Source of the DNA: Deltaproteobacteria bacterium
GTDB lineage: Bacteria > Myxococcota_A > Polyangia > JAAYKL01
Length of the DNA stretch: 64,000 bases
Assembly (NCBI GenBank): GCA_016935665.1
Contig: JAFGQN010000238.1
Span: forward strand, 1 to 64,000
Reading direction: 5' to 3'
Part shown: piece after piece, positions 57,788 to 62,135 of the stretch
Layout of the letters: each line of letters begins with the position of its first letter
Numbering within the stretch: position 1 is the first letter of the stretch
Position numbers and translations under genes: made by a program
The notes under the pieces: model-generated
Told to the model about the DNA's origin: nothing
What the model saw: only the letters and a program-made list of their open reading frames with translations
The model's database searches: none

Positions 57788-59104
57788 ATGCAAATCAATA
57801 CAGTAACAATAATTGGCGCCAATGGGGCTATTGGGTCGAAAATCGGAGGACTCCTCGCCGCTTTTACGGATGCCCGAATATTTATGATGGCGCGCAGTAT
57901 CGAGTCTGCGCAGCGCGGCGTGAAAAAAGCCATGTCCAGTATTCGAAGCAGCGTTGTTGAAAAAAAACTGATTCCCTGCACACTGGAACAGGCCGAAGAA
58001 ATACTTGGTGAATCGGATTGGGTATTTGAAAGTGTTGTGGAAGAATTGCAGGTTAAAAAGAGCATTTACGCCATGATTGACAGCTATGCAGCCACGAACT
58101 GTATCGTTACCACAGGGACATCGGGGATTTCGGTGAATGCACTCGCAGAAGCGTTTTCAGAGCAGCGGCGAAGAAACTTCTGGTGCACTCATTTTTTTAA
58201 TCCACCCATGAAGCTGACCGCGTGCGAAATCATTAAATCGAAGTATTCGGATGCCTCAAGGGTTGATGAATTCAATCAATTTCTCGAGAAATCGCTTTGT
58301 CGCACCATCGTGCCCATCAATAGCGATCGCGCCGCATTTGCCGGAAATTACGTGGGATTCAGACTTTTTGAAATGGCGGCAAATTCTTGTGAACAGAATG
58401 CAGATAAAGGCGGCATTGATTATGTGGATTACGTTCTGGGCAATGCCGCCGGAAACACGATGGCCCCTATGACCACGCTGGATTATGTGGGCCTTGATGT
58501 GTATCAGTCAATCGTTGAAAACATTCATGACAACGTTCCGGCAGCGCCTGGAAAAACATCCGGCTTTATTCGACAGCTCATTCAAAACGGATTTACGGGA
58601 AAAAAGAAATTGCAGGGACTCTACGATTATACGACGGGAACCAGCACGGCACCACCCGTTTGGGACTTGCGTGATTTTGCGTATCGCCCTGCTAAAAAAT
58701 ACAATATCGCAGAGATTGAATGTGTCAGGGAGTTTGTGCGTCATGGTCGATACGAAAAAATATTGCCGCACCTTCTTTGTGTGGACAGCAATGAATCTCA
58801 TATAGTGCTGTCATACATACTGTCATACATTTTACACTCCTTTGAACTGATTCCGGATGTGGTCAGCGATATTCGTCACGTTGATGCGGTGATGATGTAC
58901 GGTTTTGCCTGGGCGCCACCCACTTTCTGGCTGTCACAGATTGCCCGGTTGACGCAAAAGAATGCCTTTACTGCGCTTTGTGAAAAATTCGATGTAATTC
59001 TTTCTCAAAACGTACTTGCCAATATTAATACGTATATCGAAAACGACGAAGCGCCCGACGACGGCGGTTTTCGATATTTTGCAGTGGATGGAAATAGCCA
59101 ATGA
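57788..59104 (+). CDS. 3-Hydroxyacyl-CoA dehydrogenase family protein
   Basis: This 438-residue protein has an N-terminal NAD-binding Rossmann fold (VTIIGANGAIGSKIGGLLA, a variant GxxGxxG). The 3HCDH N domain follows with SDWVFESVVEELQVKKSIY and TTGTSGISVNAL, then THFFNPPMKLTACEI with the catalytic His, and the C-terminal helical domain. It oxidises 3-hydroxyacyl-CoA in fatty-acid breakdown, or the reverse in synthesis. The thiolase gene overlaps its stop by four bases (ATGA), so the two enzymes should act in sequence. There is no crotonase domain or gene beside them. Confidence 0.85.
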   Translation: MQINTVTIIGANGAIGSKIGGLLAAFTDARIFMMARSIESAQRGVKKAMSSIRSSVVEKKLIPCTLEQAEEILGESDWVFESVVEELQVKKSIYAMIDSYAATNCIVTTGTSGISVNALAEAFSEQRRRNFWCTHFFNPPMKLTACEIIKSKYSDASRVDEFNQFLEKSLCRTIVPINSDRAAFAGNYVGFRLFEMAANSCEQNADKGGIDYVDYVLGNAAGNTMAPMTTLDYVGLDVYQSIVENIHDNVPAAPGKTSGFIRQLIQNGFTGKKKLQGLYDYTTGTSTAPPVWDLRDFAYRPAKKYNIAEIECVREFVRHGRYEKILPHLLCVDSNESHIVLSYILSYILHSFELIPDVVSDIRHVDAVMMYGFAWAPPTFWLSQIARLTQKNAFTALCEKFDVILSQNVLANINTYIENDEAPDDGGFRYFAVDGNSQ

Positions 59105-60360
59105 ACAGAGTTTATATACTGGGCGGTGCACAAACGGACTTTGAGCGCAATTGGACCAAAGAGGGAAAAAGCATTGTGGCCATGATGACCGAAGTGACAT
59201 CTGCGGCATTGCAGACTGTACACATCGATATGACGGAAATCAGACGGCTGAATGCCGAAAATACGATTGCAGGATATCTGGGCAACTTTGGTGCGGAGAG
59301 ATATTTGAAACAGGGGCATCTGAACGCATTTTTTGACGAAGTGGATGACGCGTTTATGGGCATGCCGGCTGTGCGATATGAGTCCGCCTGCGCTTCCGGA
59401 TCGGCCGCGATACTGGCGGCCATTCATCAGCTGAATACCAGTTTCGAAGTGGGGATTGTGCTTGGTGTTGAAATCATGAAATCGCTTAGTGCCTTAAGAG
59501 GCGCCGATGTGTTGGGTGGCGCCGCATTTTATGAGCAGGAGGCCGAAGGGAAAAAATATCCGTTCCCCGAGCTGTTTGGTCAACTGGCGCTGGATACCAT
59601 TCGAAAGTACCACTTGAGTGAATCAAAATACATGGATCACCTCGCCATGCTGGCAAACAAGAACTATGGAAACGCAAAGCGAAATAAAAACGCACAGACG
59701 CGTAAATGGTACATGAGTCTGGCCCACGCTCAAACCAGAGGGGTGAAATACAACTCTCTTGTTGGCGCGGGTCTCGCTGTATCAGATTGCTCTCAGGTTA
59801 CCGATGGGGGCGCCTGTCTGATTTTATGTTCAAAAAAATATGCACAGGAATACTGCCTTCGCAATGATATGCATTTGGATGAATTGCCGTACATTGCCGG
59901 ATGGGGGCATCGCCATGCGCCCATCAGTTATAAGAAAAAAATCGAGTATGCCAAATCCCATGATTGTATTCTTCCGTTTACGAAAATGGCGGTGGAAGAC
60001 GCGTACCGCATGGCTGGCGTCACAGTGAATGATGTGGACGTGATTGAGACACACGATTGCTTTACATCCAGCGAGTATGCCGCAATTTCCTGCTTTGGAA
60101 TTACACAACCGGGCAGAGAGTTTGAAGCCATCGATTCGGGGCGTATTTTTTTTGATGGTGATTTGCCGGTGAATCCAAGTGGTGGGCTGATTGGCGGCGG
60201 ACATCCGGTGGGGGCGAGTGGTGTTCGAATGATGCTGGATTTGGAAAAGCAGGTTCTGGGCAAGGCGGGGGGGTATCAGGTAGCAAATGCCGAAGTCGCC
60301 GCCATGTTGAATTTGGGAGGCTCTGCAACCAGTAACTTCTCTTTTGTGGTCCGCCGTTAA
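59101..60360 (+). CDS. SCP-x/thiolase family acetyltransferase
   Basis: This 419-residue thiolase-fold protein has the nucleophilic Cys (C97) in YESACASGSAA. Its second active region has HDCFTSSE and the C-terminal GGLIGGGHPVGASGV, which carries the catalytic His. The length and HDCF motif fit SCP-x-like rather than FadA-like thiolases. It is coupled to the dehydrogenase gene upstream. Typical partner DUF35 (OB-fold) genes are not present here. A terminator-like hairpin follows within the repeat element at 60389-60512. Confidence 0.87.
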   Translation: MNRVYILGGAQTDFERNWTKEGKSIVAMMTEVTSAALQTVHIDMTEIRRLNAENTIAGYLGNFGAERYLKQGHLNAFFDEVDDAFMGMPAVRYESACASGSAAILAAIHQLNTSFEVGIVLGVEIMKSLSALRGADVLGGAAFYEQEAEGKKYPFPELFGQLALDTIRKYHLSESKYMDHLAMLANKNYGNAKRNKNAQTRKWYMSLAHAQTRGVKYNSLVGAGLAVSDCSQVTDGGACLILCSKKYAQEYCLRNDMHLDELPYIAGWGHRHAPISYKKKIEYAKSHDCILPFTKMAVEDAYRMAGVTVNDVDVIETHDCFTSSEYAAISCFGITQPGREFEAIDSGRIFFDGDLPVNPSGGLIGGGHPVGASGVRMMLDLEKQVLGKAGGYQVANAEVAAMLNLGGSATSNFSFVVRR

Positions 60361-60388
60361 ATCAGGATATCGCGGTTTACTTCTGGTC

Positions 60389-60512
60389 CAGGGCAATTGA
60401 GTTCTCGAAATGCAGGGTCCGGGCTTTATGCCCGGCCGCTGCCAGGGCAAGGCGGCAGATAAACTACCGCCCTACGTTTTTTTCTTTCCTTCGGCAGAAT
60501 TCGATTGCCCTG
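60389..60512. repeat. Copy B of a MITE-like inverted-repeat element
   Basis: Ends: CAGGGCAATTGAGTTCT (60389-60405) and, inverted, CAGGGCAATCGAATTCT (60496-60512), 15 of 17 identical. Inside are a CCGGGC-TTTAT-GCCCGG hairpin (60419-60435), a further CAGGGCAA (60443-60450), and a core with GGCGG...CCGCC plus T7 (60451-60483) shared with 1-85. The element is 124 bp, has no coding capacity of its own, and covers the last 13 codons and stop of the rqcH-like gene. A clean target-site duplication is not seen. Confidence 0.65.
60451..60483 (+). terminator. Intrinsic terminator within copy B
   Basis: GGCGG (60451-60455) pairs with CCGCC (60467-60471) and is followed by CTACG and seven Ts. It would end the dehydrogenase-thiolase transcript 90 bp after the thiolase stop. 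Confidence 0.5.
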
Positions 60513-61944
60513 ACCACTGGTCAGACAGGAGTTGCCGCAAACGGTTGGGTTCCACTTTTAAAACGAACGTCTTTTCTTTTAGCAGGCGCACTGACCCCGG
60601 TGCGGCGCCTTTGGGTTTTTGCACGTATTTACGGCGCGTATATATGATTTCCACATGGTCGTCGTTTCGGGCGGATGAAAAATGCGCCGCCAGGTGTGCC
60701 GCATCCACCAGTAAATCGGGGGTGGGATCTTCCCCCCGTCCCAGCGGAACCACCACATGACTGCCTGGCACACCGCGAACATGCAGCCACAAATCATTGG
60801 GTGTGGCATGGCGCAGTGTGAGCGCATCGTTGTCTTTGGAACTTTTGCCCACACGAGCTGTATGCGCACCAAAAATGGGATACTGCCGGTATGGCAGACG
60901 CACCGGCGTTTGCGTTCGCTTCCGGGCCCGTTGAACCACCTGTCGGTTGATTTGCGACAAACGTCCGAGCAGATCATCAAGCGCATCCGGTGGCGCGTCC
61001 ACAATTTCGCGTTTAATCGATTCGAGGTTCTCCTCTTCAATCATGGCGTTTTGCAAACGTTCGTCTATCTTTGCGGTGGCACGGCCCAAACGACCGGCTT
61101 TTTCAAACATCGCCTGCATGTTTTCCACCGCACTCAATATCGGGTTAAGCGTAATGGAAATTGGATTGCCCTCAAAATCTGTTGTGTCGAAGCGTTTAGT
61201 CCCCCGGGCGATCTTTTGCAGATTTGCCTGTACAATATAGGCATCGCTTTTCAGATTGTCGGCCTGTGCGGCTTTTTGCTGGTCCCGGGTGAGATTTTCA
61301 ACCAATGCTTTTTGTTTTTTCAACAGAGCGGTCACCGCACGATTGGCAGCTATTCGCTTTTGGGATATGACGGCATCGCGTTCTATTTGGGCGTACAGCG
61401 TCATTAGTTTTATGTCGGCCCCGTCCCCGGATTCCACGCGACTGTTTTGTTTGGTTTGTGGCGGTGGACTTGCGGGCAGCTGATAGGGTTCCTTTGCAAT
61501 CAAATGGCGACGATGGGATTGGTTGGCGTGGAGCATGCCCAGTATCACTCCGTTGGTATCCAGCAAAAACAGGTTGGCATGTCGCCCCGCCAGTTCGCAA
61601 AGCAGCACCAAATCAACGTTGTTGCGCGTCAGCGTAATGGAAACGATGCGGTCGTTATTCAACTGTGCCACACGGGTTACAGCACAGTTAATACACATCT
61701 TGCGAAGCAGCATGACAAATGCCACGGGAACCTCAGCGGCTTTGGGCTTTTGTTCAACACGTCCAATCGAACAGAATGAATGGGCGACACAAATCTGCAG
61801 ATAATGATTTTTTCCAGGTCCGCGCAACTCCAGACAGATTCGATTTCCTGCAGCAGGCGAAATCACTTTGCGCACAAGAGTGTTCGACAGCGCGTGATTC
61901 AGAGTGTCTGTGACAACGTTGATTTCAGATGTAGAAAAACTCAT
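60472..61944 (-). CDS. rqcH: RqcH/NFACT-family ribosome quality control protein
   Basis: This 490-residue protein has NFACT-N (1-175), long coiled-coil helices (about 190-350) and NFACT-R (about 355-480: YPIFGAHTARVGKSSKDND, LWLHVRGVPGSHVVVPLGRG, VDAAHLAAHFSSAR and VEIIYTRRKYVQKPKGAAPG). Bacterial RqcH binds stalled 50S subunits and adds Ala tails. The start at 61944 follows GGAG. The last 13 codons and the stop lie in the repeat element, so the native C-terminus was probably replaced; the NFACT-R domain itself is complete. It has no partner gene on this strand here. Confidence 0.88.
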   Translation of the reverse strand: MSFSTSEINVVTDTLNHALSNTLVRKVISPAAGNRICLELRGPGKNHYLQICVAHSFCSIGRVEQKPKAAEVPVAFVMLLRKMCINCAVTRVAQLNNDRIVSITLTRNNVDLVLLCELAGRHANLFLLDTNGVILGMLHANQSHRRHLIAKEPYQLPASPPPQTKQNSRVESGDGADIKLMTLYAQIERDAVISQKRIAANRAVTALLKKQKALVENLTRDQQKAAQADNLKSDAYIVQANLQKIARGTKRFDTTDFEGNPISITLNPILSAVENMQAMFEKAGRLGRATAKIDERLQNAMIEEENLESIKREIVDAPPDALDDLLGRLSQINRQVVQRARKRTQTPVRLPYRQYPIFGAHTARVGKSSKDNDALTLRHATPNDLWLHVRGVPGSHVVVPLGRGEDPTPDLLVDAAHLAAHFSSARNDDHVEIIYTRRKYVQKPKGAAPGSVRLLKEKTFVLKVEPNRLRQLLSDQWSGQSNSAEGKKKT

Positions 61945-62135
61945 TACGCTCCGTTCGTTCGATGGCACCGGAGAAAAGTCCGGATACTACGGACCTGGAT
62001 TTTGTACCTGTTTGGTTTGGTTTTGCCAAACAAAACACGGAAGGCCGCCCCTATTCCTTGTGCGCTGTCTTCAAATTGCGAACAATCCCCAAATTGTCGC
62101 TTGTGATTAAAGTTCCATAAACGTAAAGTCGGCTC

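Follow-up and report, generated by a model that had tools for sequence, protein, structure and literature searches.

Positions 60389 to 60512 of the window, a 64,000-nucleotide stretch corresponding to bases 1 to 64000 of C76, a contig of the draft genome G000 (8.16 Mb, 249 contigs), very probably hold a non-autonomous mini-transposon (MITE) of the ISAs1 family that carries two GTAG-type REPs in inverted orientation (a REPIN). The composite nature of the element, in which ISAs1 ends are packed around the REP pair, is well supported. MITEs, moved by DDE transposases, and REPINs, moved by HUH transposases, are usually regarded as distinct kinds of small bacterial repeat; in the present element, one unit bears the recognition sites of both kinds of transposase. 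Its position at the end of an rqcH-like gene, a gene of ribosome rescue, also provides a clean case of a mobile element rewriting the stop and the tail of a gene.

Anatomy and copies of the element

The element is a type A composite MITE of 124 bp (no strand assigned), as defined by the alignment of 11 near-full-length copies and by the fold. The left terminal inverted repeat, CAGGGCAATTGAGTTCT, lies at 60389 to 60405 on the plus strand, and the right one, read as CAGGGCAATCGAATTCT on the minus strand, at 60496 to 60512. Each is identical at 16 of 17 positions to the end of a complete ISAs1 element (L100, described below), and each departs at one position from the type A consensus, CAGGGCAATCGAGTTCT. 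The two 17-bp ends match as inverted copies at 15 of 17 positions (88%), as stated in an earlier sequence-only reading of this DNA. When the element was dinucleotide-shuffled 3,000 times, such ends never arose; the surrounding 324 bp, shuffled 300 times, likewise yielded no comparable inverted pair at a spacing of 40 to 130 bp. The target-site duplications, ACTTCTGGTC at 60379 to 60388 and ACCACTGGTC at 60513 to 60522 (no strand assigned to either), are identical at 8 of 10 positions, and the right one is located within the rqcH-like gene. Since the duplication matches at only 8 of 10 positions, this copy is no recent insertion. Between the ends are REP palindrome ‘a’ (GCAGGGTCCGGGCTTTATGCCCGGCC; 60412 to 60437, plus strand), a close variant of which flanks a RAYT gene elsewhere in the genome (locus L040), and palindrome ‘b’ (GTAGGGCGGTAGTTTATCTGCCGCC; 60451 to 60475, minus strand), which is inverted relative to ‘a’ and was recognized from its genome copies and the fold. 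The 124-bp element folds strongly on both strands (z = −5.4 for plus and −7.5 for minus).

The sequence-only reading had called the segment MITE-like, and had pointed to further copies in the genome, their target duplications, a transposase with similar ends, and rqcH in close relatives as the places to look. The search of G000 with the 124 bp gave at least 40 scored matches, including at least 11 full or near-full-length copies, and the 11 that were aligned show 77 to 100% identity. The pattern CAGGGCAATCG followed by A or C and then by A or G has 56 exact matches in G000 and none in its reversed control, while end patterns of this type have 1 to 10 matches per related genome of the same family, many of which are probably due to chance. 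An exact pattern requiring both paired ends found no match in the genome search, because both ends are rarely perfect within one copy. In the 12 copies with both ends recognizable, the flanking 10 bp agree at a mean of 6.6 of 10 positions. The mean is 2.9 of 10, with a maximum of 5.4, when the flanks of different copies are paired, and 0 of 20,000 shuffles reach 6.6. Two copies, L009 (ATTGTGCCAG) and L024 (GACCATTAAT), have perfect 10-bp duplications. The element is short and non-coding, possesses terminal inverted repeats and a target-site duplication, and occurs in many copies, all of which are marks of MITEs. The earlier designation is therefore borne out by the multiple copies, the 10-bp duplications, and the matching transposon.

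A second element is found at positions 1 to 85 (no strand assigned), with its outer end, of type B1, at position 85; the same sequence ends many other contigs. The second copy noticed earlier is thus real, but what had been taken for truncation is a cut by the contig start, not a biological one. Its end type differs from that of the copy at 60389 to 60512, though the composite is the same. Together with this copy, at least 37 further contig ends of G000 lie inside B1, B2, or B3 element copies. Because contigs end inside elements, the assembly is fragmented and intact copies are under-counted. This matters to assemblers of such genomes, the elements breaking the assembly at at least 38 contig ends. 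A 37-bp unit, CAGGGCAATCGAGATAAAACAGAACTCGACACCCCTG, near position 30971 of contig C224 (L071), is apparently a type A element with the core deleted.

ISAs1 ends and transposase

No intact ISAs1 transposase was found in the G000 assembly by PF13808 or NF033564 searches. A complete 1,320-bp ISAs1 element, L100 (positions 1384 to 2703), is present in the same-genus genome G002, and its transposase scores 364.7 bits against NF033564. The 17-bp end of L100, CAGGGCAATCGAGTTCT, has the sequence of the type A consensus. The element lies in an ATPase-like gene that is split, with a perfect 10-bp duplication (GCACTTTCTG) on its two sides. The earlier statement that no transposase in the window explains the element holds for the window itself, whereas a transposase with the same ends does exist in this sister genome. 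When ISAs1 elements from other phyla were examined without using the MITE sequence, 10 of 22 loci showed CAGG-type ends and perfect 9- to 10-bp duplications; these 10 include L118, which is the element of L100, and one of the 10 has TAGGG instead of the CAGG end. The 10-bp duplication of the MITE fits the ISAs1 family in length (10 bp in L100 and 9 to 10 bp elsewhere).

A trace of the transposase should also be noted in G000. The peptide KKRKRCAYDPDYILEVLAA is encoded at the very start of contig C43, and a type B end comes after it. This 19-residue fragment aligns to the last positions of the ISAs1 profile with a weak match (2.4 bits), and is apparently, from its sequence, an ISAs1 C-terminus beside the end type used by the copy at 1 to 85. 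The lack of ISAs1 copies in the G000 assembly is probably due to its breaking at repeats.

These comparisons suggest that the MITE is mobilized in trans by an ISAs1 transposase, which would cut at the CAGGGCAATCG ends and insert the unit via a 10-bp staggered cut. If so, REP pairs, including a class of REPs reported without a transposase of its own, have a second route of spreading. The element resembles ISAs1-family insertion sequences (NF033564; PF13808 and PF01609) and their derived MITEs in its CAGGGCAATCG ends and 10-bp target duplications, but it is 124 bp instead of about 1.3 kb in length, has no transposase, and carries a REP pair. A 56-bp near-perfect palindrome with two ISAs1-type ends, CAGGGCAATCGCAT, observed in genome G011 (L204; contig C661, 2929 to 2984), seems to be a minimal MITE that lacks a REP pair.

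REP pair and other cargo

The core consensus consists of two inverted palindromes, GTAGGGACCGGGCTTTATGCCCGGCC (‘a’) and, on the opposite strand, GTAGGGCGGTAGTTTATCTGCCGCC (‘b’). By the usage of PMC3733652, they belong to the GTAG type of REP, and they are arranged in a REPIN-like pair (PMC3116915), which the sequence-only reading had not recognized. The inverted pair is GTAG-tagged, with one exception in the copy at 60389 to 60512, where the tag of REP ‘a’ (60412 to 60437) is mutated to GCAG while the family consensus begins with GTAGGG. REP ‘b’ has 45 genome copies within two mismatches versus 0 in the control; the counts for REP ‘a’ come from individually read loci. In the Rfam search, no match reached the gathering score of any family.

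The RAYT gene in locus L040 of G000 (NF047646, 97.5 bits, above the cut-off) is flanked by inverted REP ‘a’ palindromes of the close variant. Most Y1_Tnp loci are without a flanking REP, and L040 alone has one. At 1336 to 1990 of L040 (contig C118, near 40018), the inverted repeats flanking the RAYT gene extend past the REPs (GTATACC...), and the gene adjoins a remnant of a type B element. The inverted palindromes with outward GTAG tags, and the RAYT gene with REPs of this type on its flanks, are features shared with REPINs and GTAG REP dimers (Bertels and Rainey 2011, PMC3116915; PMC3733652). Unlike these, the pair in the element has ISAs1 ends at a fixed distance on both sides, with target duplications outside, and its two REPs differ from each other (a heterodimer). 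In the open-licence literature searched, no account was found of REP pairs lying within ISAs1-ended MITEs.

The same RAYT gene raises the question of whether the element is a REPIN moved by this tyrosine transposase, the outer inverted repeats being mere extensions of the REPIN. In favour of this are the inverted GTAG REP pair in the core, a RAYT gene in the genome whose REPs are of the same type, and about 10 copies without outer ends. However, the 10-bp duplications lie exactly at the outer ends, and a Y1 single-strand transposase is not expected to produce them; moreover, an ISAs1 element has matching ends, and in a sister genome the same ends enclose other cargo. Movement of the element as such an extended REPIN is largely refuted by where the duplications lie, and we consider it very unlikely; the ISAs1 MITE with REP cargo is the preferred interpretation.

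Most of the examined REP ‘b’ copies sit 36 to 39 bp inside an ISAs1 end, and the intervening arms differ in sequence. About 10 copies have no ISAs1 end, and their ends may have decayed. This arrangement points to one old composite that would have had several ISAs1 partners (end types A, B1, B2, and B3), its arms diverging with them; repeated capture of REP pairs by ISAs1 ends is a possible alternative origin. In genome G004, four loci (L087, L092, L096, and L099) contain a repeated element that begins near AGGGTGTTGTAAAAGG and is cut at contig starts; a REP ‘a’ palindrome lies about 35 to 40 bp inside it, and it is perhaps a composite with different ends.

ISAs1 ends also enclose other hairpin pairs. 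Two contig ends of the same-genus genome G001 share a 67-bp overlap, implying a 134-bp element, reconstructed by this joining and not from a single contiguous read, in which 17-bp ISAs1 ends, both perfect, surround a CGTC/TGTC REP pair in inverted orientation. One arm of the pair has an 8-bp stem, a 4-bp loop, and a CCA tail, which are features of CGTC-1 repeats (PMC3733652). The dimer between these ISAs1 ends is like the CGTC-type REP dimers of the same report, with the differences that no such dimer is present in the 64-kb window and that the sister-genome element is joined from contig ends. A third hairpin pair, of the CTGGGAACGCGGAGCTCC type, lies between ISAs1-type ends in L207 of G001 and in L058 and L069 of G000. 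In five further loci of G001 (L205, L209, L210, L212, and L213), nearly all at contig ends, type A ends stand beside CGTC-type palindromes or other sequence, the CGTC type being clear in L205, L210, and L212.

It is conceivable, though rather doubtful, that ISAs1 transposases act generally as carriers of REP pairs across this bacterial family, with GTAG, CGTC, and the third hairpin pairs all packed between ISAs1 ends and amplified. CGTC REPs have been reported without a dedicated transposase (PMC3733652), and would gain a route to spread if this were true.

The end of the rqcH-like gene

The rqcH-like gene, at 60472 to 61968 on the minus strand, encodes an NFACT protein of 498 aa (PF05833, 1e-39; PF05670, 2e-10), for which the NCBIfam RqcH/EfbA models score below their cut-offs. 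A search for RqcH over the genome contigs found no relative. As read from the sequence, its TAG stop (60472 to 60474, minus strand) comes from the GTAG tag of REP ‘b’. The preceding 13 codons, SGQSNSAEGKKKT (residues 486 to 498; 60475 to 60513, minus strand), are element DNA except for the first base, so that the earlier claim that the stop and the last 13 codons lie within the element is correct apart from one base.

The gene-side copy of the target duplication is, on the minus strand, GACCAGTGGT, and the far-side copy is GACCAGAAGT, which is followed by AA. With the flanks joined to reconstruct the empty site, the protein ends as ...LLSDQW* or ...LLSDQK* with 485 residues. The joined flanks thus place the insertion after the T of the gene's ancestral TAA, one base into that codon. 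Translation now continues 13 codons into the element and halts at the TAG of the REP tag. There is precedent for such a stop, since GTAG REP tags are reported to give TAG stops often to flanking ORFs (PMC3733652), a point in which the rqcH site is like known GTAG REPs and REPINs. In the 10 same-family genomes with a readable 3′ end, the rqcH homologues align to residues 467 to 482 and stop 1 to 25 residues later. The element is absent from the rqcH 3′ end in all 10, and the added 13 residues have no counterpart in any homologue compared. The joined flanks and these element-free relatives support the proposal that the element supplies the end of the gene.

The sequence-only reading had further regarded the element as co-opted as a terminator. 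The T7 run it described is present. On the plus strand, 5 nt separate this run from the ‘b’ hairpin before it, whose stem there contains a C-A mismatch; on the minus strand, which is that of rqcH, the ‘b’ hairpin is intact and no T run follows. A terminator scan on both strands gave zero terminator-like sites. The hairpin described as terminator-like thus exists in a weak form, but the gap, the mismatch, and the empty scan speak against a terminator. Co-option as a terminator is unsupported: the only T run is on the plus strand, and so could never terminate rqcH.

More broadly, retention of the element may be owed to a benefit that it brings to the end of rqcH, in the form of a selected C-terminal tail, an mRNA-stabilizing hairpin, or a terminator. 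The strong hairpins on both strands would suit such a role, as would the several type A copies located within a few bases of ORF ends, a location often found for REPs (PMC3733652). However, these copies may equally reflect tolerance of insertion at gene ends; in addition, neither strand has a terminator-like site, and the added residues are without counterpart among homologues. We regard such a benefit as unlikely; most likely, the 13-residue tail arose as a neutral side effect of gene-end insertion. That the segment is instead a conserved, non-mobile feature of the rqcH 3′ end is refuted by the copies elsewhere in the genome and the relatives without the element at rqcH, and has practically no probability. 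The mobile composite MITE remains the preferred reading.

A convergent thiolase-like gene on the plus strand (59101 to 60360) ends 28 bp before the element. According to one survey, ISAs1 insertions are over-represented between convergent genes (PMC9208149). The rqcH site also resembles the RPE of Rickettsia, palindromic elements located in genes (described in PMC3733652), in that short repeat DNA is translated into protein. It differs from them in that only the C-terminal tail and the stop are affected, and in that the transposon family is identified here.
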